Positions 44,001-55,951 of a DNA stretch of 55,951 nt are shown here, in pieces. The translations under genes were made by a program, and so were the position numbers. The notes beneath the pieces are model-generated. The model did not search any database and was not told the DNA's origin. It saw nothing but the letters and a program-made list of their open reading frames with translations. This stretch comes from an uncultured Bacteroidia bacterium (GTDB taxonomy: Bacteria; Bacteroidota; Bacteroidia; Bacteroidales; UBA932). The stretch lies in NCBI GenBank assembly GCA_902762655.1, contig CACWOZ010000023.1, forward strand, positions 1 through 55,951, in the 5' to 3' direction. How positions within the stretch are numbered: position 1 is the first letter of the stretch; every line of letters begins with the position of its first letter.

Positions 44001-44042
44001 ATCGCAAAGAGAGCAGCCATTTCTGACTGCTCTCTTTGCGAT
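44001..44042. terminator. Long bidirectional hairpin between convergent operons
   Basis: ATCGCAAAGAGAGCAG and CTGCTCTCTTTGCGAT form perfect 16-bp arms around a 10-base loop, between the SDR stop (43968, plus) and the transporter stop (44042, minus). There is no clean T run outside the stem, but the U-rich and A-rich parts of the arms make it a plausible two-way terminator. Confidence 0.75.
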
Positions 44043-45418
44043 TACTGAATCTGCTGTACTTTCCGCTTCCAGTTTAGCATGGGAAGCAGGAAGGAAATGA
44101 TGGCCGCCCCAAGCCAGAACCAGACAACGGCAGAGAAGTCATGGCCCGACGCTGTGCTGCCATTGTCCATCAGAAGGCCAGTAACAACATTCTGCAGGCC
44201 GGCCGCAGCATAAGAAGCAATACCAACAATGCCCAAGGCGGCTCCAGAGGCTTTACGTGGTACCAGGTCAATAGCCATTAACCCGCCCAGGAAACTGATG
44301 AGGACGCCGATGGCGATACCGAACAGAATCATGGCCAGGACGTTGACCCAACGGGCCGGACCACCAAAGAGGAAGAGCGCCAGAGCGATGGACTCCAGGA
44401 CACCGGCCACAAAAGCCGGATACTTGCGGTCCCCCTTAAAAATCACATCAGACAGCCAGCCGGAGAGTACCGTGCCTATGATACCGAACACGGGATTGAT
44501 GCCGATAATGGTGGCGGCTTCGCCCAGGCTGTAACCTTTGGCTTCCTGCAGGAAGATGGTTCCCCACTCATTGATAGCGTAACGGCTCATGTACATGAAA
44601 GCACTGGCCGCAGCCAATATCCAGACACCGGGATTCTTGATCACCATCTTTTGCATCAGCTTGGTTTCCAGACGCTTTTTCTTCTTTACCTCTTCTGCGG
44701 CAAGGCGCAGATTTCCACCTTTTAGTTCGTATTCTTCAGGGGTCATCTCACCGGAGAGCACTTCGATGGCCGGCAAGCCCTTGGATTCTGGGGAATCATG
44801 GAACAATAGTAATACCAGAATCAGGCCTACGATACCCCCAAGAGCCGCTCCAAAAAAGCCCCACTTCCAACCGAAGGCTGCAACAATAGAACCCACAAAG
44901 ACAAAAGAAAGCCCCTCTCCGATATTATGGGAAGCACTGAATATGCCATAGAAAGTACCTCTGACTTTCAGTGGCATCCAGCGTGAAAGGGCGACGATAC
45001 AAGCCGGCGATCCCATAGACTGCGCCCAGCCGTTCAAGGCCCAAAGGACACAGAAACTCAAGAACAATACGGAATTGGCTATGCCTCCATCCAGAGACTT
45101 GACTCCCAACACACCCATTGAAAAGTTCATGGCCACTGAGATCAGGATGCCTGTTGCCATAAAACGCTTGATATTGGCGCTGTCGGCAAGAAAGCCATTG
45201 ACGAGTTTTCCAACGGCATAGGTCCAATATAGACACGCGCCAATGACTCCCAGCTGGGTTGCCGAGAGTAGACCTGCGTCAATCAGCGGCTGCTTCATCA
45301 CGCCCATTGACAGACGGCAGACATAATATAGCGCATACCCGAAGGTTGCCGCCAGGAAAGTCTGCATCCGCTGACGTTTATAAGATTTCAAGACCTTGTT
45401 ATCAAGTGAATCGGACAT
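44042..45418 (-). CDS. Organophosphate:phosphate antiporter (OPA) family transporter, GlpT/UhpT-like
   Basis: 458 residues, 12 predicted membrane helices with a charged central loop (about 210-258). The OPA signature region GWAQSMGSPACIVALSRWMPLKVRG (about 130-153) is clear. The two arginines that bind substrate phosphate in GlpT (R45, R269) have counterparts in YYVCRLSMG (Arg35) and FMYMSRYAINEW (Arg279), so it likely exchanges a sugar- or glycerol-phosphate for inorganic phosphate across the inner membrane. Some OPA homologues are sensors (UhpC), but no kinase lies nearby. It is the last gene of the second Sus operon, 5 bp after the EEP phosphatase gene. Confidence 0.87.
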   Translation of the reverse strand: MSDSLDNKVLKSYKRQRMQTFLAATFGYALYYVCRLSMGVMKQPLIDAGLLSATQLGVIGACLYWTYAVGKLVNGFLADSANIKRFMATGILISVAMNFSMGVLGVKSLDGGIANSVLFLSFCVLWALNGWAQSMGSPACIVALSRWMPLKVRGTFYGIFSASHNIGEGLSFVFVGSIVAAFGWKWGFFGAALGGIVGLILVLLLFHDSPESKGLPAIEVLSGEMTPEEYELKGGNLRLAAEEVKKKKRLETKLMQKMVIKNPGVWILAAASAFMYMSRYAINEWGTIFLQEAKGYSLGEAATIIGINPVFGIIGTVLSGWLSDVIFKGDRKYPAFVAGVLESIALALFLFGGPARWVNVLAMILFGIAIGVLISFLGGLMAIDLVPRKASGAALGIVGIASYAAAGLQNVVTGLLMDNGSTASGHDFSAVVWFWLGAAIISFLLPMLNWKRKVQQIQ

Positions 45419-45423
45419 TGTTG

Positions 45424-46383
45424 TCAGGGTTTAATGGTAACAAATATAGGAAAATGGTCGGACGGATGGCAAAAATTGTGAATGTCTTTTCCGCGGGGGT
45501 CCCGGTAACAATCGGCAAAGCCCTCGCGAAGGACACGGGCCGACGTCACTTTGCCAAACAGCGCCGGCGTCACATATACCATGTCTATGCGCTTCCCGGA
45601 AACCGTGGTTTTCTGGAATTCCCCAGGATAGAATCGCTCTATCACATCAATGTAGGGTGTGTGATTGCGCACATAGTCGTGCACCAGGAAAGCGGTATCA
45701 TCAGCGTCTTTTCCATAGTGGAAGTTATCTATGGAAGAGATGGCATTGAAGTCCCCTGTCATCAGCCAGAGGTGGTCCTTTGCTGAAGGATCCGTGCCGA
45801 TGGTCTGCTCGCAGATGTACTGCATCTCCCGGGCGCGGAAATGGTCTCCGCCATGCGCGGCGGCATCGGCCTTTTCATCGGCCGCCAGGTATGCGAACTT
45901 TTGGGGCCAGGTGTGCACCGTAACCACGTTGAGCTCTGCGCCGCCGGGCAATTGAACCACCGCCCAGCCGGCTCCGTGGGCCACTATGATGTCTTCCCCG
46001 TTGCCGGTTATGCGTTTAATGATACGGATGGGATACTTGGAAGTGATTACCTGAGGAAATGTATCCCGCTTACCGCATATCAGGGTATACTTATGCCCAT
46101 AACGGGATGCCAGAATATCCCAGTTCCAGGGAAGGTACTGTTCCTCCGGCATCTGCATCTTTTCTGCAGTATCGGTCCTGTAACGGGACTCGGCCTCGGC
46201 CCAGACACAAATATCCGGGTCCAGATCCTGGACAAAACTGACAAAGTTGTCGTAGTTGTTTCCCTGGTCATGCCACATCCCGTTCTGGATGTTCCAGTAC
46301 AGGACCTTCACTTCCCTGCCCCGTCCCCAAGCACAGGAGGACAGGGCAAGAAGGAAAGTAAAAAGAATTAAGAAGCGTTTCAT
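45424..46383 (-). CDS. Secreted endonuclease/exonuclease/phosphatase (EEP) fold lipoprotein
   Basis: 319 residues from ATG 46383, which overlaps the stop of the GLUG lipoprotein (ATGA). Lipobox ends at Cys17 (LALSSC). The complete EEP active site is visible: Asn31 (YWNIQNG), Glu63/65 (AEAESR), His157 (VTVHTW), Asp211 and Asn213 (TGDFNA), Asp309-His310 (PSDHFPI). EEP enzymes hydrolyse phosphomonoesters or phosphodiesters of nucleic acids, lipids or inositol phosphates. Because this one is exported and sits between a phosphodiester glycosidase and an OPA transporter, a carbohydrate phosphoester substrate is the best inference. Divalent metal dependence expected. Confidence 0.88.
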   Translation of the reverse strand: MKRFLILFTFLLALSSCAWGRGREVKVLYWNIQNGMWHDQGNNYDNFVSFVQDLDPDICVWAEAESRYRTDTAEKMQMPEEQYLPWNWDILASRYGHKYTLICGKRDTFPQVITSKYPIRIIKRITGNGEDIIVAHGAGWAVVQLPGGAELNVVTVHTWPQKFAYLAADEKADAAAHGGDHFRAREMQYICEQTIGTDPSAKDHLWLMTGDFNAISSIDNFHYGKDADDTAFLVHDYVRNHTPYIDVIERFYPGEFQKTTVSGKRIDMVYVTPALFGKVTSARVLREGFADCYRDPRGKDIHNFCHPSDHFPIFVTIKP

Positions 46384-47984
46384 TGGGCAGGTGCCACATA
46401 GGTAAGACCGCTGACTTTGGCCTTGGAGCCGCCTCCGATGTAATCCATGAAGTTCTCGGCATTGATTTCGTAGACCTCGCCGCCAACCATACCCAGCGTA
46501 CCGCTCACTACAACATCCTTGAAAGAGGAGTACTTGGAGAAATTGGCCACCAGCAGGCCTCGGCCGTTGGCAGCGGCATTGCCCGTACGGATATTGCCAT
46601 AGTTTCCGCCACCTTCCACAGTGCAACTGTTGTCGTTAAGAAGGGCAACCATACCGGCTGTGGTGGTATTGCTGTCCGAGGTGGTCAAGTCGCCACGGTT
46701 AGTACAGTTAATCATGTGGCAATCCAAGTTCAGTAGGGAAACCAGGTTGCCGATACGGCCATTCGCAAAGTTGTTCACCTGGCTGGCGTAATTGGTGCAG
46801 TCCTTAATGATGGTGGCGTTGTTGGCCGTTGCCAAAAGACCGCTGCAACGGCCCTGGTCGGCCGTAATGGTGCCGCGGACCACGCAATTCGCAATAGTGT
46901 CACGTGCAGCACTCTTGTCACCGGTTACGAAGCCGGCAATACCGCCGAACATGGAAGCTGTAGCACCGCTCTTTGTATTTTTGCCGCTACCACCGGTAAC
47001 GGTCACCTCCACTTCACAATTCTTGATGCTGCTCTCAAGCAGATCACCTTCGCTAGAACAGCAGAAGACAAAGCCGGCGAGGCCGCCCACGGCAAACCGC
47101 TTGTTGTCTGTCTGGGTACCTTCGGTCTTGATGGTAGCCTTAATCTTCACGTTCTCGATGGTGGAAGCATACACCGTACCCGCAAGTACGCCGGCATCGC
47201 CCGTGGAAAGGCCTCCCACGGTGAAATCGGCCTCGAGGTTGAGGTTCTTGACCGTTGCGCGATATAGGGCGCCGAAGAAACCGTAGGTTCCACCGTCCTC
47301 AATGTCGGTCTTGGAAGCCTTGAAGCCCTTGATGGTGTGGCCGCCGCCGTCGAAGACGCCGGTGAAGTAGTTTCCTTCCGGAGCCGAGGCGTTATTGCCA
47401 TTGCCCGTCTTTTCCACATTGCCGATAGGAACCCATTCGGCCACTTCGCTCAGGTCAAGGTCAGCCAGGAGTTGAACTTCCTGCTTGTCGTTGAGCCAGC
47501 GGACGACAGGGTCTCCGTCGTTGACGGCGGCAATAAAGTCCAGGAACTCGTCCTCGTCGGGAATACCGCCGATGGATGCGTTGGGGTCGATGAATCCCTT
47601 GTGGCCCAACTGGCTAACGGGGACCACCAGAGATGTCATACCACCGGAGAACTTCACTTCTCCGGTGCGGGGAGCCATATCTGTGCTTTCGTTCTTGTAG
47701 TTGGACTGGAAAGAAAGTGTAACCACGGTGGATTTACCGCCGCCCACGCCCGTGACGGGATCTATGGTAACCCAGTCCGGTCCCTGGGCAATCCAATAGG
47801 GAGCATCCGTAGTCACCACCAGGGTCTGGGAGCCGGGATTGTTGGCAGGAATTTCCGAAACGGACGTGATGTCCGAAGAAATGGTGTAGGTCTTGACTTC
47901 CTGCTGCTTGTTGCAGGAAACCGCCGCCATTGCCCCTGCCAGGAGCAAGATAAGACATTTTTGCATGGTTTTCATATGCTGCAT
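46380..47984 (-). CDS. BACON and GLUG-type beta-helix lipoprotein
   Basis: 534 residues from 47984 (ATGs at 47975 and 47966 are also in frame just ahead of the signal peptide). Lipobox ends at the Cys of AAVSCNKQ. Residues about 35-125 are a BACON-like beta-sandwich (TLVVTTDAPYWIAQGPDWVTIDP, VTLSFQSN). After a linker, residues about 150-510 carry irregular repeats of the GLUG kind (GVFDGGGHTIKGF, GGLAGFVF, NCTNRGDLTT, NYGNIRTGNA), predicting a beta-helix. No catalytic motif; likely surface glycan binding. The C-terminal 90 residues are clearly paralogous to the partial protein at the right window edge. Four bases separate it from the upstream gene. Confidence 0.82.
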   Translation of the reverse strand: MQHMKTMQKCLILLLAGAMAAVSCNKQQEVKTYTISSDITSVSEIPANNPGSQTLVVTTDAPYWIAQGPDWVTIDPVTGVGGGKSTVVTLSFQSNYKNESTDMAPRTGEVKFSGGMTSLVVPVSQLGHKGFIDPNASIGGIPDEDEFLDFIAAVNDGDPVVRWLNDKQEVQLLADLDLSEVAEWVPIGNVEKTGNGNNASAPEGNYFTGVFDGGGHTIKGFKASKTDIEDGGTYGFFGALYRATVKNLNLEADFTVGGLSTGDAGVLAGTVYASTIENVKIKATIKTEGTQTDNKRFAVGGLAGFVFCCSSEGDLLESSIKNCEVEVTVTGGSGKNTKSGATASMFGGIAGFVTGDKSAARDTIANCVVRGTITADQGRCSGLLATANNATIIKDCTNYASQVNNFANGRIGNLVSLLNLDCHMINCTNRGDLTTSDSNTTTAGMVALLNDNSCTVEGGGNYGNIRTGNAAANGRGLLVANFSKYSSFKDVVVSGTLGMVGGEVYEINAENFMDYIGGGSKAKVSGLTYVAPAQ

Positions 47985-47988
47985 ATAA

Positions 47989-50451
47989 TTATTTTTCTCT
48001 TATAAGTATGTAAGACAGGCAACTGCGCTCGCCCTTGGAATCAGCGGGTTTGTTCACAATGGAACCCTTGGAACCATCCCAGAGCCATACCGCAGAACTT
48101 CCTCCGCCGTCCAGACGCGAGATATGGGCGCCGCCAAGTTTCTTTCCTATCCGGAACATCTCGTAAGCTTTCACGCCCATTCCCTTCCAGCCCCGGCGTC
48201 CGTCAACTTCTACCAGCCAGAGGCGGGTACCGTCGGCAGACACTACAGGGAAAGTCATGGGGTCGTATTTGGTAAGCGGAGCGGCGCCGGAGGGAATGGT
48301 ATTGGTCCGGTCTTCCCCGTCCACCATAATCTCGTACATGGTAGAATCCAGGGTGAGAATGGGTTTGGAGCTGTCCCCGTTGATGGCGATACGGCAGGAA
48401 AGTTCCAGGACATCGCCCACCTTCACTGCGTCGGCCCACTCGCCGGCTGGGGTGCCGGAGAGGGCGATTCCCACCTGCGAGGCGGACGAAATGTAAGGAG
48501 GCTGCACACTCTTGAAACGACCGTCCAGGATGGAGACCACCCGGGCCTTCGCGTAACCGCCGTTCACCTTCATGGGACCATCCATGTACTCGCACACGAC
48601 ATATAGTACATCGCGTGCCAGGGGGTTGGTGATGGAAGGCTTGACGGGATAGGGAGTCTGCACATAGTAGCGGGTGTACAGGTTAATCGGAGACACGGTA
48701 GGACTTGCATGCCGGAGGGTAGTATCGTTCACCGTGTAAAAGCTGTATTCCTTGGAAGGAGTCTTCACTTTTCCCTGGAACGATTTTTTCCCGCTGGCGG
48801 CCGTACCATCCGCGTAAACCGCAATGCCCCATTGGTGATTGGAGAGCTGCTTCACAACGGAAGGGTTGTTGATGTACACAGGCTCGCCGTTTTCCACATG
48901 GAAGCCACGGGAAATGCCGTCGTTGGAGTCGAAGAAACAGGCGTTTACGCCATAGAGAATCTTCTCCCCTGCGGCACGGCGACGGTTGCAAACATCCGAA
49001 AGCCGCTCACGCAGGTTAAAGCCGTTGTTATAGTTTCCGTTCCCATTGGGGTTGGGAATCATATCACCGGCCAGGGCTCCAACAACTTCAACGTTGGCAC
49101 TCTTCAGGTCCACCTCTACAACATGCATGGTTCTGGGCACATTGACAAAGGAATACTTGGTATATACCACGCCGGAAGCGAGTTCCCGGGTATCTTCCAC
49201 CGTCCAGTCGTAGTAGGCGTCCAGTGTCCAGTCCACATTGTTGTTGAGGCCCGGACTGGTGCTTTCGTCATCGTACAGGACAAAGTTGTTCACCGGATCC
49301 ACCACGGCATTCACCAACATGGCAGGATGGCTGGTATCGCCCACAAAACCGTAACCGGTATTGGCAAAGAAGTTCTTTGCGGTTTCATTGTACGAACAGC
49401 CCCAGCCTGGTCCCAGTTTCCTGTCGGCCGAATAAGGGCCCAGGATGGCACCAGAATTGGTGCAGTGCGTAACAGTACCCAGATTGTATCCCACAAGGCC
49501 TCCTTCGCGGCAGGCTGTCTTTACGCTGATATCACCATTGTTCACACATCCTTTGCCGGAAATGTCTCCGCCCAGGAGGGTGTTGGCGTCAGTTCTGCCG
49601 GCAATGCCTCCCACAAAGAGGTTCTCTCCGGTCGAATGGTTGTCCTCCAGCGTAATGGAAACGTTGTTGGTAACGGACTCCAGGGTGGCGCCCACAGCAC
49701 GCCCCACAACGCCTCCCACTGCCACATTGCCGGAGGAAACGCCCGTGAATGTGGCCTTGCTTCCGCTGTCACCCACCGTGAGGCGACGGATGGTGGCCCC
49801 GTTCACACAGCCGAAAAGGCCGGCATCGGGATACTTCGAGAGGTCTACCGTCCAGCCAATGTTCTTAATGGTGAACCTGGCTCCGTCCACACTGTATTTC
49901 AGCGGATGGGACGCCGTACCAACAGGAATCCATTCCCGGATGGAGGAAGCGTCAATGTCGGCGGTGAACTTCACCTCGCCGTCCACCAAATACTGGTTTA
50001 TGGAATAGCCGGCCTCACCGTTCACGGCCCTGGCAAACCCCAAAAGGTCTTCGGCCGTGCCGATTCCGCGTTTCACAACACCGCTGCCTGCAGCCTGCTT
50101 CAGGGCTATTTCGGCCTTTTTGCCGTCAAGGGTGGACACGGTGATAACACCGGAACGCTCCGATGTCTCCTTGTTCTCCTCAACGGAAACCGTAAGGGAC
50201 GAAGCCTGTGTAGGGGATCCCTTTCCGGAAGCGGAGACCATCTTGATCCAGTTTTTATCGGCTCGGGCAAACCAGTCGCTGGACGAGAGTACGGAGAAGG
50301 TCTTGTTTTCCCCCAGAGCGGCTACGTCGGCCGAGGTGGGAGAAACAGAGAACGTGGTCTCCGATGGATCCGTCGTCTCTTTCCCGCCACAAGCGGCGAG
50401 AAAGAGACCGGAAACCAGTACAAAGGATATGCTGCGCAAAAGGCTATTCAT
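47989..50451 (-). CDS. BACON-GLUG-phosphodiester glycosidase (NAGPA type) lipoprotein
   Basis: 820 residues from ATG 50451 (MNSLLRSISFVLVSGLFLAAC), overlapping the susD end by 8 bp. After the lipobox Cys comes a BACON domain (about 30-120: FSVSPTSADVAALGENKTFSV, GVITVSTLDGKKAEIALKQ), GLUG-like repeats (about 130-340: GARFTIKNIGW, GLFGCVNGATI, GGVVGRAVGA) and a C-terminal domain (about 430-820) with the hallmarks of PF09992: GVNACFFDSNDGISRGFHVENGEPV, MGVKAYEMFRIGKKLG and LDGGGSSAVWLWDGSKG followed by ERSCLSYILI. The human relative removes GlcNAc from a GlcNAc-1-phospho-6-mannose diester. Here it should release a sugar joined through a phosphodiester; the sugar is unknown. Confidence 0.88.
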   Translation of the reverse strand: MNSLLRSISFVLVSGLFLAACGGKETTDPSETTFSVSPTSADVAALGENKTFSVLSSSDWFARADKNWIKMVSASGKGSPTQASSLTVSVEENKETSERSGVITVSTLDGKKAEIALKQAAGSGVVKRGIGTAEDLLGFARAVNGEAGYSINQYLVDGEVKFTADIDASSIREWIPVGTASHPLKYSVDGARFTIKNIGWTVDLSKYPDAGLFGCVNGATIRRLTVGDSGSKATFTGVSSGNVAVGGVVGRAVGATLESVTNNVSITLEDNHSTGENLFVGGIAGRTDANTLLGGDISGKGCVNNGDISVKTACREGGLVGYNLGTVTHCTNSGAILGPYSADRKLGPGWGCSYNETAKNFFANTGYGFVGDTSHPAMLVNAVVDPVNNFVLYDDESTSPGLNNNVDWTLDAYYDWTVEDTRELASGVVYTKYSFVNVPRTMHVVEVDLKSANVEVVGALAGDMIPNPNGNGNYNNGFNLRERLSDVCNRRRAAGEKILYGVNACFFDSNDGISRGFHVENGEPVYINNPSVVKQLSNHQWGIAVYADGTAASGKKSFQGKVKTPSKEYSFYTVNDTTLRHASPTVSPINLYTRYYVQTPYPVKPSITNPLARDVLYVVCEYMDGPMKVNGGYAKARVVSILDGRFKSVQPPYISSASQVGIALSGTPAGEWADAVKVGDVLELSCRIAINGDSSKPILTLDSTMYEIMVDGEDRTNTIPSGAAPLTKYDPMTFPVVSADGTRLWLVEVDGRRGWKGMGVKAYEMFRIGKKLGGAHISRLDGGGSSAVWLWDGSKGSIVNKPADSKGERSCLSYILIREK

Positions 50452-52288
50452 TGGTAGAATTGTCAAAACCGTCATCCCAGCCGGGATTCTGCGTGAGGAC
50501 GCCGCCGGTGGCGGAGCGCTCGCTCACAGGGATAGGCCATAGATAATCGCGGCTTTCTACCCAGGTATAGTCTTCGCTTGAGTAATAGGTGAGGTATCCG
50601 TGGTCGCCCTCGGACAATGTATAATTCGAACCCAGTTCAATGTGGTTGGACGCCTTCACGGATGTGGTGGGTTTCTCGCCCTTATACAGCAGGATGTCCA
50701 TCTTGCCGTCACCGTCCATGTCATATTCTCCAAGACCGGTGAAATAGCATCCGCCAAAACCGCCCACACTCTTGGGAGTGAGCCATTTACCCTCGCCCCA
50801 GCGCAGGAGATCCCACTGACGGAAGCCTTCTGCGACAAGCTCTACGGTGCGCTCACGGCGCACTTCCAGAATGGCTGCTTTCTGAGCGCCCTTGGCATTG
50901 GGATAGTACTGTTCCATAAGCGGGTCCACGGTAGTGGGAACCTTAGCCATGGCGGGCATACCAACACGGGCACGGATTACATCAATGGTAGCGGCAACAT
51001 CGGCATCGGTAAGCTCACCCAGTTCGGCTTTGGCCTCGGCATAGTTCAGCAGGACCTCGGCATAGCGGAAGAGCGGATAATCCGTGGTGGACGTTGTAGC
51101 AGTCTCATGCGAAGAGTCGGAGATGTACTTGATGACCCGGTAGCCGTTGAAGGTACGGTCGAAGGCAATCTCTTCGTGTCCCGTTCCGTCCACGGCCTTA
51201 TAGGAAGGTCCATGCAGCGTCTGGGACATACGGGGATCCCTGTTGGCGAATGCGTCCAGGTAGGACATCGTCTCCCAGCCGGCACGCTCCTGGATGGGCT
51301 TTCCGTCGCTCTGAAGATAGTGGTTCACCAGGCGGGTTGTGGCGCTCATGCGCTTGGACTTCAAGTCAAACTGAATGCCGTGACGCACCAGAATATCCAC
51401 ACTGTAACGGCGCGAGAGGATAGTTTCGTCGGCCGCGGCATCTTCCAGGATAAAGAATTCCCGGTAGCTGGCACCGGTAGCCTTCTTTGCCAGTCCCAGT
51501 GTATTTCCCGTATAGAGGGAATGCTTGCCCAGAAGTTTTCCGGCAGCATCGGCCGCCTGGCGGAGGAAGTATTCGGAAGAAATTGTTACACCGTCGAAGG
51601 TCTGCTCGTCCTGCGGCACGTAAGGCGTACCGGCGTGGTACTTGCGGAAGGTGCCTTCAAACAGGGCAATCCGGGCCTTGAGGGCCAGAGCAGCGTCTTT
51701 GGACACATGGTATAACGGAGAAGAGGACCATTTTTCGGGAAGGCGTTCGTAGGCTTTGTCCAAGTCTTCCATGCACTTGAGCATCACGTAGCCGCGCGGG
51801 TCGCGGGGTTTCTTCAGGGCCTCGGTATCCCCGGAGCCGATCACTTTGTCGTACCAGGGCATGTCGCCGTATACCCGCACTTTCTTGTAATAGTAAAGGG
51901 CGCGGAAAAAATAGGCCACACCGTCATACATTTCCTTCACGGAAGCGTCCGGGCAGCGGTTGTTCTCCAGCAGGTAATTGATATCCCTAAGCGGAGCCCA
52001 AGTGCTGGAACTCCAGGTGCTGCTGGGGTTGCGGGTGCCCTTCTGGATACCCGACAGGCCTGTGGCGCTCACGATATCATCGGCCGTGAGCTCGGCCAGG
52101 TCTTCAGCAGTGGTAAAATTCCTGCTGTAGAAGCGGTTGGCCCAGAGATCCAGTTCGGCCTTGGAGGAGAAGAAAGAGCCCGGAGACAGGTTGGTCTCGG
52201 GAGTTTTAGTCAGAAAATCATCCTGGCAGGAAATAACGCAGAAAACGCCTGCCATCATAGTTATAAGGAGTATAATCTTCTTTTTCAT
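50444..52288 (-). CDS. SusD/RagB-family glycan-binding lipoprotein (second PUL)
   Basis: 614 residues; lipobox ends at Cys21 (FCVISC), followed by DDFLTKTPETNLSPGSFF. SusD landmarks: YDGVAYFFRALYYYKKVRVYGDMPWYDKV, LFRYAEVLLNYAEAKAELGE, VRRERTVELVAEGFRQWDLLRWGEGKW and a C-terminal RDYLWPIPVSE. Outer-membrane lipoprotein lid of the SusC encoded 6 bp upstream. Low similarity to the pectin-locus SusD, so a different ligand is expected. Confidence 0.95.
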   Translation of the reverse strand: MKKKIILLITMMAGVFCVISCQDDFLTKTPETNLSPGSFFSSKAELDLWANRFYSRNFTTAEDLAELTADDIVSATGLSGIQKGTRNPSSTWSSSTWAPLRDINYLLENNRCPDASVKEMYDGVAYFFRALYYYKKVRVYGDMPWYDKVIGSGDTEALKKPRDPRGYVMLKCMEDLDKAYERLPEKWSSSPLYHVSKDAALALKARIALFEGTFRKYHAGTPYVPQDEQTFDGVTISSEYFLRQAADAAGKLLGKHSLYTGNTLGLAKKATGASYREFFILEDAAADETILSRRYSVDILVRHGIQFDLKSKRMSATTRLVNHYLQSDGKPIQERAGWETMSYLDAFANRDPRMSQTLHGPSYKAVDGTGHEEIAFDRTFNGYRVIKYISDSSHETATTSTTDYPLFRYAEVLLNYAEAKAELGELTDADVAATIDVIRARVGMPAMAKVPTTVDPLMEQYYPNAKGAQKAAILEVRRERTVELVAEGFRQWDLLRWGEGKWLTPKSVGGFGGCYFTGLGEYDMDGDGKMDILLYKGEKPTTSVKASNHIELGSNYTLSEGDHGYLTYYSSEDYTWVESRDYLWPIPVSERSATGGVLTQNPGWDDGFDNSTNE

Positions 52289-52294
52289 AAGGCT

Positions 52295-55200
52295 CTAGAA
52301 TGTAATGTCCACACCGAAAGAGAAAGTCCGGGAATAAGGATAGGTAACGTCACGGGTACTCGAACCGGCCGTAGCCACTTCCGGATCTACATACTTGGAA
52401 ATCTTGGACAGGGGAGACAGGTAGAAGAGGTTTTCGCCGGAGAAGTATACGCGCACTTTCTCCAGGATACGGTTCTTCTTCAGGGGAAGGGTGTAACCCA
52501 CGGTGAGGTTCTTCAAACGCAGATAAGCCGCGTTCTGCAGATAATAGTCGTTGGTCTTGTAGTTGGCAATCAAACGGCCCCTCATGCGGGGGAAGTAAGC
52601 GTTGCTGTTGTCGGCGCCTTCTGCAGGGTCCCAGCACAATGCTTCGAAATCCTTCGGGATGAAGGAAGGACGCTGGTAGCCGTAAGGTCCCCAGAAATAA
52701 CTGCTATAGGCACTGGGGGCCCAGTCCAGCTTTCCTACGCCCTGGAAGAAGACGCTGATATCCAGACCGGCCCAGCTGAAGTCGCCCTTGAGGGCATAAT
52801 TATAATGGGGACGGCTGTTGCCGATGACTTCTCGGTCACCGGGGTCGTCCAGTGTATTCTTACCGGTGTTGATGGCGCCGGAACCGTCCAGGTCTTTGTA
52901 TTTCAGGTCTCCAGCCATCAGGTGGTTGTACGGAGCCTTGGAGTTGAAGATATCAGCATTCACCACCTTGGAGTCGATTGCGGCTTCATAGGCGGCTGCT
53001 TCCTCGTCTGTTGCGAAGAACCCGTCTGTCCGGTAGCCCCAGATATCGCCCAGGCGCTTGCCCACGAAGTGGTCGCTGATGAGTTTGTCGGGATTCTCGT
53101 AACGGGTGATGTAACTCACGTTGTCGCCCAGGGTGGCGGTAATTCCATAATACAGTGGTTTCCCAGCCAGGGTAACGTTGTCTTTCCAACTCACCGCCAC
53201 CTCAAAGCCATAGGTGCGCAGGTCAGCCGCATTCTCCTTGGGAGCCTCTGCACCATACACCGACGGCAAAGTCATGGCCGTGGTGAGCATGTTCTTGGTA
53301 TCCCTGATGTAATAGTCGGCGTTGACGGTGAGACGGTTCCTCAGGAAACCCAGGTCCAGACCCACATTCTTGGAAATCACGGTTTCCCAGGTAAGGCTGC
53401 TGGAAACGGGATCGGAGACAGAGGCATATCCGGCCTTGCTGCCGTCGAAGGTATAGGAAAGAGATCCCACGGAGATGGTGTCCCAGTAGTAGTAGTTGCT
53501 CACCTGCTGGTTACCCAGGGTACCATAAGAGAGACGGATCTTCGCATTGGAAACTATGGGACGGATTTCCTCCCAGAAGGGTTCCTCGGAGATTCTCCAA
53601 CCAGCCGATGCGGAAGGGAAGAAGCCCCAGCGATTGCCTTTGGGGAAGCGGGAAGAGCCGTCGTAACGGCCGCTCAGTTCCAGTAGGTAACGGCCTTTCC
53701 AATCGTAATTCAAACGGCCGAAGAAGCCCAGCGTACGGTATGCGGAATTGGATTCCGACAGGGTTTCGATACCTACCAGGTTGCCGTCAGCATCTACTGC
53801 AGCCGCGTTTTTGTTCAGGTAAGAGAGGGTTTCGCTCAGCGAACCTTTCTGCTTCACGGTGAGCTGGGTGGAATGATAGTCGTCATAGTTGGTACCCAGG
53901 GTGGCGGCCACATGATGGGCTTCTCCGAAGGTGTTGTCATAGGAGAAGTAAGCGTTTGCCACACTTCCGTCCTGGAGATAACGGACTTCCTGGTAGAAGT
54001 CGTAGACAGAGCCGTTGGTGAATACACCGCCGGTGAGGCCGTTACCTTCATACATCCGCTTGTTCACATTGTCGTAAGCATTGACGGTGGGGACGCTGCG
54101 GTATCCGGCCAGACGGTCCCTGCGGCGGTAGGTATAGTCTGCAATGAACTTGAGTCCCTTCGCGATGTTCATCGTAAAGCGGTTAGTCCACGTCCAGTAA
54201 TTATTGGTGTTGTTATTATGGTTGCGGCCGTCCATGAACACACCGCCACGGCCGCTCATGAGCGGAGATGTAGCGTCGGCCATAAAGCCGGGAACCATAG
54301 CGATAGTGCCGTCGGGATTGAAAGGAACCAGGTTCGGGCCCACATTCTGGGTAATGTTCCACATAATACCCTGGGAATTGAGACCGTCGCTGCCGTCCAT
54401 CTCCCAGAAACCTCCCCAGTCATACTGGGTACGTTCCAGGGAAACGTTGGTGGAATAGTTGAGCCAGGGGGTAATCTTGGCGTCAATCTTGCTGCGGAGG
54501 GAAACGCCGTTGTATGTATCCTGAACCGCACCGCCAAAGAAACCGTTTCTCCTGATCCAGCGGCCCGAAGCATAGTATTTCACATTTTCGTTACCACCGC
54601 GAACTGCTACGTTATGCTCGGTCTCGGGACGTACTTTGTTGAACAGGTAGCTATACCAGTCAAAGTTGCCCAGATACACATAGGTGTTGGTACCGGTAGC
54701 ATCCGGAACCACCCAGGGGCGCTCAGGATTCTCAGTTACGTCGTTCCGGCGCTCGTACAGCATCTGCATCTGTTCGTCGGAATAAGTCCAGGCGCCGTAA
54801 CCCTTGTAGGTCTCATAGAACTTGTTGGTAAGGGTTACGTAGTCGTAGCCGCTGGTAATGAAGTCCGTAGAAGTAGTGTTGGTTGAGAGGGAGAAGCGAC
54901 CGTTATAGGTCACTTTGGCCATCCCCTCGTTTCCGCTCTTGGTCGTGATGAGAATCACACCCGCCGACGCCTTGGCGCCGTAGATGGCGCAGGCCGACGC
55001 ATCCTTGAGCACGGAAATGCTCTCGATGTCGTTGGGGTTCACCAGGGTAAGGGAACTCTCGATGCCATCCACAAGGATGAGCGGGGAACCGCTGTTGAGC
55101 GAGAGTTTACCGCGGATGTTCACGCTGTAGTTGGTTCCGTCAATGGAGCCGGAAGATGTGGTAAGCACCAGGGAAGGATCTGCTCCCTGTAGAGCCATGG

Positions 55201-55627
55201 CGGTATTGGTAACGGGACGGGCATTTAGTTCCTTGCCGTCAATCACGGACACGGCGCCGGTCAGGTTAACACGTTTCTGGGTACCGTAACCCACTACCAC
55301 CAGTTCTTCCAGAACGTTGTCACTTTCCATAACGATGGAAAGGGGCATGCGCTCCGATCCTGTGAGGTTCAGCACCTTGTCGGTCATTCCCATGAAGGAA
55401 ACGGTAATCCGGGCAGGGAAAGCGACATTGCTTATGGAGAAGGCTCCGTCATTGTCCGTAATTGCATACTGGCTGGTTCCGGCCACTTGTACGGCAGCCC
55501 CTATCAGGGGCTCACCGTAATTGTCCGTCACCACACCGCGAATGCTGCTCTGCGCCTGTGCCAGCGCCGGAATGAGCAGCACGAGGAATGCAAGCATCAC
55601 ATTCCGCAGGAAGTTTGTTTTAGACAT
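52295..55627 (-). CDS. SusC/RagA-family TonB-dependent outer-membrane transporter (second PUL)
   Basis: 1110 residues. Signal peptide (LIPALAQAQ), carboxypeptidase-regulatory-like domain (SSIRGVVTDNYGEPLIGAAV), the SusC stretch ELVVVGYGTQKRVNLTGAV leading into the plug, plug motif GSPLILVDGIE and YGAKASAGVILITTKSG, then the beta-barrel ending RTFSFGVDITF. No STN domain. Works with the adjacent SusD and the TonB-ExbBD motor to bring oligosaccharides into the periplasm. Only 6 bp separate it from susD; the upstream GLUG protein gene ends 41 bp before its start. Confidence 0.96.
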   Translation of the reverse strand: MSKTNFLRNVMLAFLVLLIPALAQAQSSIRGVVTDNYGEPLIGAAVQVAGTSQYAITDNDGAFSISNVAFPARITVSFMGMTDKVLNLTGSERMPLSIVMESDNVLEELVVVGYGTQKRVNLTGAVSVIDGKELNARPVTNTAMALQGADPSLVLTTSSGSIDGTNYSVNIRGKLSLNSGSPLILVDGIESSLTLVNPNDIESISVLKDASACAIYGAKASAGVILITTKSGNEGMAKVTYNGRFSLSTNTTSTDFITSGYDYVTLTNKFYETYKGYGAWTYSDEQMQMLYERRNDVTENPERPWVVPDATGTNTYVYLGNFDWYSYLFNKVRPETEHNVAVRGGNENVKYYASGRWIRRNGFFGGAVQDTYNGVSLRSKIDAKITPWLNYSTNVSLERTQYDWGGFWEMDGSDGLNSQGIMWNITQNVGPNLVPFNPDGTIAMVPGFMADATSPLMSGRGGVFMDGRNHNNNTNNYWTWTNRFTMNIAKGLKFIADYTYRRRDRLAGYRSVPTVNAYDNVNKRMYEGNGLTGGVFTNGSVYDFYQEVRYLQDGSVANAYFSYDNTFGEAHHVAATLGTNYDDYHSTQLTVKQKGSLSETLSYLNKNAAAVDADGNLVGIETLSESNSAYRTLGFFGRLNYDWKGRYLLELSGRYDGSSRFPKGNRWGFFPSASAGWRISEEPFWEEIRPIVSNAKIRLSYGTLGNQQVSNYYYWDTISVGSLSYTFDGSKAGYASVSDPVSSSLTWETVISKNVGLDLGFLRNRLTVNADYYIRDTKNMLTTAMTLPSVYGAEAPKENAADLRTYGFEVAVSWKDNVTLAGKPLYYGITATLGDNVSYITRYENPDKLISDHFVGKRLGDIWGYRTDGFFATDEEAAAYEAAIDSKVVNADIFNSKAPYNHLMAGDLKYKDLDGSGAINTGKNTLDDPGDREVIGNSRPHYNYALKGDFSWAGLDISVFFQGVGKLDWAPSAYSSYFWGPYGYQRPSFIPKDFEALCWDPAEGADNSNAYFPRMRGRLIANYKTNDYYLQNAAYLRLKNLTVGYTLPLKKNRILEKVRVYFSGENLFYLSPLSKISKYVDPEVATAGSSTRDVTYPYSRTFSFGVDITF

Positions 55628-55668
55628 GTTTAAAAAGGTAATTATTTGGTTTTAAGGTCTAATCAACA

Positions 55669-55951
55669 TTAAGGTGCAACGTAGGTGCAGTTGGTGATTT
55701 TGGCCTTGTCGTCGGCAACATACCGACCAATATAATAATCATCAATAAAGTTTTCGGCTGTTACCTCCTTTTCCGTTCCTTTGTTGAACAACTGCCCGCT
55801 TACGGTAACGCCGTCAACCTTTAAAATGCCATTCATGTAGGCTGCGACAAGGCCATAATTGGTGGCATGCATACTGGAGACTATGCCATAGTTCGCGCCA
55901 CCCTGAATATACCCATTATGCTCAATCAAGGCAGCCATACCACCTGTAGTG
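55669..55951 (-). CDS. Partial GLUG-type protein, C-terminal end only (paralogue of 46380-47984)
   Basis: The frame is open to the window edge (TTGG precedes the first visible Met) and ends 41 bp before the SusC start. The roughly 94 visible residues align with the C terminus of the lipoprotein at 46380-47984: TTGGMAALIEHNGYIQGGANYGIV against TTAGMVALLNDNSCTVEGGGNYGNI, VTVSGQLFNKGTEKEVTAENFIDDYYIG against VVVSGTLGMVGGEVYEINAENFMDYIGG, and both end YVAP. Probably a surface lipoprotein of the same operon; its N-terminal part lies outside the window. Confidence 0.8.
   Translation of the reverse strand, partial: TTGGMAALIEHNGYIQGGANYGIVSSMHATNYGLVAAYMNGILKVDGVTVSGQLFNKGTEKEVTAENFIDDYYIGRYVADDKAKITNCTYVAP

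Follow-up and report, generated by a model that had tools for sequence, protein, structure and literature searches.

A SusCD operon free of glycoside hydrolases as a candidate uptake system for phosphodiester-linked glycans in Bacteroidales

What does a Bacteroidales SusCD operon take up when it encodes no ordinary glycoside hydrolase (GH) or lyase? The question is raised by the right-hand end of contig CACWOZ010000023.1 (C23) from an uncultured Bacteroidia bacterium with a 2.18 Mb genome in 36 contigs. The whole contig (55951 bases) is the window analysed here. At its right end, a SusC/SusD pair precedes a phosphodiester glycosidase-type (NAGPA) domain, an enzyme of the endonuclease/exonuclease/phosphatase (EEP) superfamily and an organophosphate carrier of the OPA family. 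The best reading of this locus, supported in outline, is a phosphodiester-glycan uptake system, because these genes occur together again in divergent loci, and more often than a rough estimate of chance would give. In its fuller form, the proposal is that the window holds most of a polysaccharide utilisation locus (PUL)-type operon for a phosphodiester-rich polymer, probably a teichoic acid-like one containing glycerol-phosphate, and that the operon works by the mechanism proposed below; we regard the arguments for and against this form as evenly balanced.

The operon in the window and beyond it

All genes of the operon lie on the minus strand. The gene at the window edge (55669-55951) is the 3' end, 93 codons, of an open reading frame for a GLUG-like protein and is followed after 41 bp by the SusC-like TonB-dependent outer-membrane transporter (52295-55627; TIGR04056, 1.5e-240). 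The gene for the SusD-like surface binding lipoprotein (50444-52288; SusD_RagB; PF07980, 1.1e-43; PF14322, 1.1e-16) is adjacent to susC, 6 bp away, and overlaps by 8 bp a gene for a lipoprotein with a BACON domain (PF13004, 2.9e-10) and a C-terminal NAGPA-type domain of a divergent subfamily (47989-50451; PF09992, 2e-11). After a gap of 4 bp comes a second lipoprotein with a BACON-like N-terminus and GLUG-like repeats (46380-47984; BACON 0.0013 and Glug 0.02, both under the Pfam cut-off), which overlaps the secreted EEP-fold enzyme (45424-46383; PF03372, 6.9e-09) by 4 bp. The last gene, 5 bp further on, encodes an OPA-family (MFS) carrier of a divergent subfamily (44042-45418; PF07690, 1.7e-41). 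The gene finder was home-made, and some start positions are wrong. The initial annotation described seven tightly packed genes. Their order and spacing (4-8 bp, 41 bp at SusC) stand; the seventh is truncated, and the window's right edge lies inside the operon because the contig ends there, so seven is an undercount.

Pfam scans of the six whole genes found no GH or lyase domain, as had been claimed, and GH and polysaccharide lyase domains were likewise absent from scans of the genes on contig C19 (see below) and of the relatives' copies of the remaining genes. The NAGPA domain is the sole glycosidase-type domain among the scanned operon genes. No Pfam family reaches its cut-off in the GLUG-like lipoprotein (46380-47984), which is probably a binding protein; proteins like it form the biggest unlabelled cluster across the NAGPA operon runs described in the next section.

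The remainder of the operon can be followed in four relatives of the window clade that have long contigs (G005, G062, G156 and G333), with 76-93% identity to the window over shared proteins or parts of them. Going upstream from SusC, these encode a GLUG-like protein of 834-854 aa, a second GLUG-like protein (728-739 aa), an EEP fusion (~1080 aa), a 1330-1377-aa protein that is DUF4886 by Pfam in the G062 copy, and a GDPD. The order up to GDPD is identical in all four, on unbroken contigs; GDPD was called with a home-made profile in each and by Pfam in G062 and G005. Downstream of the EEP gene, OPA follows in G005, G062 and G333, and the G156 contig stops after EEP. Full homologues (834-854 aa) of the truncated window gene occupy the same place in loci L107, L108, L109 and L110. 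On contig C19 of the window's genome, which begins within a homologue of the 728-739-aa protein, the EEP fusion, the DUF4886 protein and GDPD come next. These four genes match their G062 counterparts in order, GDPD last, at 74, 80, 83 and 88% identity. The operon thus very probably continues from C23 onto C19, with GDPD at its head and an estimated ~2.9 kb missing between the contigs. The GDPD copy on C19 (G000:C19:9776-10156) scores 81.6 bits against a PF03009 cut-off of 23.6 (80.5 for the G062 copy), and the best-matching solved structure for GDPD is 3i10 (1.4e-53). Comparison of two GDPD upstream regions placed the true start upstream of the gene-finder start, with a lipoprotein-like signal there, and gave no clear motif.

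The EEP fusion and the large DUF4886-type gene of G156 each appear to be broken into two frames, and a second OPA gene stands directly upstream of the operon-head GDPD (L109). Each operon has several GLUG-like lipoprotein genes, whose likeness may, at a guess, have caused the assembly break between C23 and C19.

Partners of NAGPA genes in related loci

An alignment search with NAGPA gave 95 confirmed stretches, of which the best 80 yielded 78 distinct loci, mostly from rumen or herbivore-gut Bacteroidales metagenome-assembled genomes; three are titled Alistipes or Rikenellaceae (L198, L206, L208). When annotated with home-made profiles, SusD was present in 65 of the 78 loci, SusC in 58, EEP in 36, GDPD in 17, histidine-type phosphatase (HAP) in 12 and OPA in 11. 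On the NAGPA strand the counts were 36 for EEP, 16 for GDPD, 11 for HAP and 11 for OPA, and at least one of the four stood there in 51 loci (none in 27). GDPD and HAP never shared a locus (0/78). Grouping at 70% NAGPA identity produced 22 clusters, with OPA in 8, GDPD in 9, EEP in 8 and HAP in 5.

EEP and OPA are not rare in the genus, a very large one that is presumably Cryptobacteroides, since EEP matches at 1e-20 occur in 156 of 400 genomes (a sample drawn from a larger group) and OPA matches at 1e-30 in 209 of 250; GDPD varies from 0 to 11 copies per genome (41 genomes). Chance co-occurrence was modelled from the copy numbers in the window's genome (OPA 5, GDPD 7, EEP 4), which gives 1.6-2.8% per locus, a rough estimate that uses one genome's copy numbers and thresholds unlike those of the locus annotation. 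Relative to this rough estimate, the same-strand excess counted by locus has P values of 4e-7 for OPA, 4e-10 for GDPD and 2e-43 for EEP; with one locus per cluster (mean counts rounded down), these become ~0.009, 0.0003 and 2e-5. Removal of the five window-clade loci left 73, with OPA in 8, GDPD in 16, EEP in 31 and HAP in 11 (P = 1e-4 for OPA and 1e-10 for GDPD). The co-occurrence with susCD for which the initial annotation called is thus found, above rough chance for EEP and OPA; OPA as a constant partner was rejected at 11 of 78 loci. Its proposal of phosphoglycan utilisation remains the best reading by co-occurrence, on a gene set that was incomplete: GDPD and a second EEP lie outside the window.

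Further SusCD-type loci with NAGPA, forming a second class, were seen where matches clustered and are left uncounted: L216 has OPA and a HAP-NAGPA fusion, L219 a HAP-NAGPA fusion and no OPA, and L220 OPA and no HAP. In L134, also seen where matches clustered and uncounted, NAGPA lies between two OPA genes. NAGPA operons repeatedly encode a lipoprotein-like family of ~450 aa (10 members in one cluster) that matches the profile of PF21311, a phage five-bladed beta-propeller; the PF21311-matching members tested with Pfam were L119:409-1785 and L185:14071-15426.

Carrier, enzymes and a proposed route

What would the carrier import? It matches TIGR00881 at 2.7e-65, yet under the family cut-off, and the GlpT structure 1pw4 in the PDB at 1.9e-41. 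The two arginines singled out by the initial annotation, R35 and R279, do align with GlpT R45/R269 and UhpT R46/R275, and H164 and K71 stand at GlpT H165 and K80. The UhpT positions D388 and K391 are L395 and V398, and the score against the UhpT equivalog is 169.1 bits (cut-off 497). We take the compared residues to have the roles generally assigned to them in GlpT and UhpT (phosphate-binding arginines, histidine, D388/K391 pair). Among 18 neighbourhoods of window-type OPA genes, drawn from the genus at consecutive ranks and including some that look near-duplicate, GDPD lies upstream of OPA in 12, directly so in 11 and with one gene between in L119 (order GDPD-HAP-OPA); 6 lack it. In E. coli, glpT likewise adjoins glpQ, an OPA carrier beside a GDPD. 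Because OPA-GDPD pairing is common and the carrier lacks the UhpT D388/K391 pair, glycerol-3-phosphate or a similar glycerophospho-product is likelier than hexose phosphate, which both observations weaken. The earlier suggestion that OPA imports a phosphorylated product is thus retained with glycerol-3-phosphate as the likelier cargo and a phosphorylated sugar as the less likely one, which would in turn favour a glycerol-phosphate polymer such as teichoic acid as the substrate.

The NAGPA-type domain scores 44.8 bits against PF09992 (cut-off 25) over residues 736-825 of the longer frame, corresponding to profile positions 88-168 of 169 and thus to the C-terminal half only. A NAGPA profile matched the structures 3ohg (6.5e-10) and 6ozd (3.4e-09), and weakly (0.13) 6pki, NAGPA itself. 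Like the NAGPA "uncovering enzyme" (6pki) and the DUF2233 protein 3ohg, it has a C-terminal half with DGR and DGGGS; unlike them, it is divergent and longer, with BACON in front, and its N-terminal half is unaligned in the profile comparison. Across 18 NAGPA sequences the DGR, DGGGS and GERS motifs are invariant, and the PRT motif reads PMT in the window. The assignment as a NAGPA-type glycosidase accordingly stands as to family and is narrowed to the C-terminal half of a divergent subfamily.

For the EEP enzyme, the motif positions, the catalytic ones presumably among them, are invariant or nearly so across 31 aligned sequences including that of the window, in agreement with the complete active site noted initially. 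The copies in four syntenic loci are 85-90% identical, and an LSSC motif seen by eye makes a lipoprotein possible.

The scanned operon genes, with no GH and with NAGPA, two EEP, GDPD and DUF4886, support a route in which (i) the GLUG/BACON lipoproteins and SusD would bind the polymer and SusC would bring pieces in, (ii) the secreted EEP and GDPD enzymes would cleave phosphodiesters and the NAGPA-type enzyme glycosyl-1-phosphate links, and (iii) sn-glycerol-3-phosphate would be released by GDPD, with the OPA carrier exchanging organophosphate for phosphate across the inner membrane. Where sister loci lack GDPD, HAP may take off the phosphate instead. We put forward only tentatively the broader idea that GH-free Bacteroidales loci of this kind serve to consume teichoic acids, or similar glycerol-phosphate glycans, from (Gram-positive) neighbours, with NAGPA-type enzymes cutting glycosyl-1-phosphate and glycerol-3-phosphate being imported. 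If the phosphodiester-glycan proposal is right, the SusCD diet of Bacteroidales would gain phosphodiester-linked polymers, perhaps the cell-wall polymers of other gut bacteria, bacterial NAGPA (DUF2233) enzymes would gain a testable setting, and a glycerol-3-phosphate route would be predicted for rumen communities.

Several results weigh against the proposal in its fuller form. None of EEP, GDPD, OPA or HAP is found in 22 of 60 SusD-containing operon runs; 33 of these runs extend to the edge of the available stretch, and among the other 27, 8 carry none of the four. OPA and GDPD are present in only 11 and 17 of the 78 loci. Only the C-terminal part of the NAGPA domain is matched by Pfam, the PDB and the profile comparison, and the canonical PRT arginine, invariant in five canonical copies, is M or K in 16 of 18 sequences, a divergence that makes the activity of this subfamily uncertain. 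The carrier has L36 at GlpT K46 and P309 at GlpT E299, and its 199.5 bits compare with a cut-off of 632.55 for the GlpT equivalog TIGR00712. Compared with the PDB, the EEP profile matches LINE-1 endonucleases best (1.3e-5); because of these and of a four-member S1/P1 nuclease-like cluster in NAGPA operon runs (one member Pfam-tested), the EEP enzyme could be a nuclease. Lastly, C19 is linked by synteny only, with no assembled join of C19 and C23.

Alternative substrates and known systems

Three other explanations for such an operon were weighed. The closest known kind of system is the SusCD "phosphate utilisation systems" (Pus) of Flavobacterium, in which, according to the part of the account drawn on here, PusCD clusters hold, besides SusCD, phosphomonoesterases, phosphodiesterases and phosphonate enzymes together with organophosphate transporters of the inner membrane (PMC8115612). 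In gene content the present operon resembles them, with SusCD, EEP, NAGPA and OPA in the window and GDPD on C19: a SusC/SusD pair with phosphodiesterases or phosphatases and, as in some Pus, an organophosphate transporter takes the place of carbohydrate-active enzymes. The operon could then scavenge phosphate from mixed phosphodiesters such as lipid head groups and nucleic acids, the backbone being incidental, and the S1/P1 nuclease-like cluster would fit. We consider this unlikely. NAGPA and GLUG proteins go unmentioned in that part of the Pus account (PMC8115612), and the NAGPA domain, the GLUG/BACON lipoproteins and the GDPD+OPA combination set this operon apart from Pus as described there. 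Many relatives also differ from that description in having ECF-sigma/FecR-like genes before SusC. Among the 50 long SusC genes with SusD next in the 78 loci, 37 come after a FecR-sized gene, which in 21 cases itself follows an ECF-sigma-sized gene, judged by length only, with two of each checked by NCBIfam; genes of these sizes suggest substrate sensing rather than PhoBR. In the window clade no such pair adjoins SusC, and a GLUG-like gene takes its place.

Phosphomannan or another sugar-phosphate glycan, from which NAGPA would take the capping sugar before a hexose-6-phosphate is dephosphorylated by EEP or imported, seems to us rather more doubtful still. NAGPA is fused to a GH92 catalytic domain in L045:6187-9090, downstream of a SusC-like gene (L046 appears alike), and to HAP (PF00328) in L036:8806-10902, L039:9446-11473 and L133:4866-7010, the last with a GH97 gene beside OPA. 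The GH92 fusion is a hint that loci of another type act on mannosyl phosphodiesters. The mannosyl-6-phosphatase 4c1r, which we take to originate in a yeast alpha-mannan PUL, weakly matches the EEP profile (0.019). The fused NAGPA domains, however, belong to another, more canonical subfamily, and their loci were set aside as not the same system. The absence of the UhpT pair from the carrier also speaks against phosphomannan. The Bacteroides thetaiotaomicron yeast alpha-mannan PULs are said to be SusCD operons that include an EEP-fold enzyme, as here, and reportedly rely on GH76/GH92, whereas no GH was found in this operon.

Nucleic acids or phospholipid and inositol-lipid head groups, with EEP acting like a DNase or lipase, GDPD on deacylated phospholipids and HAP on inositol phosphates, are an improbable substrate. 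The LINE-1 endonucleases that top the EEP profile's PDB matches would suit it, as would the frequent pairing of GDPD and OPA in the genus with NAGPA not nearby. Such a diet explains neither the large GLUG/BACON lipoproteins nor the presence beside SusD, in 65 of the 78 loci, of the NAGPA domain that served to collect these loci.

Literature searches, which left most subscription journals outside their reach, found nothing joining "phosphodiester glycosidase" with SusD, nothing joining teichoic acid with PUL/Bacteroides/GDPD or SusD/phosphodiester, and nothing on BT3783. E. coli glpTQ shares with the phosphodiester-glycan operon a GDPD (glpQ) beside an OPA-family carrier (glpT) and, unlike it, has no SusCD, NAGPA or EEP; the carrier described here is 29% identical to E. 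coli GlpT.

In one NAGPA operon, an S1/P1 nuclease family protein (L186:19036-19797) is encoded between GDPD and OPA. Upstream of GDPD on C19 (L215, 10694-13363) lie genes that by eye resemble a sugar isomerase and a kinase, possibly for rhamnose.

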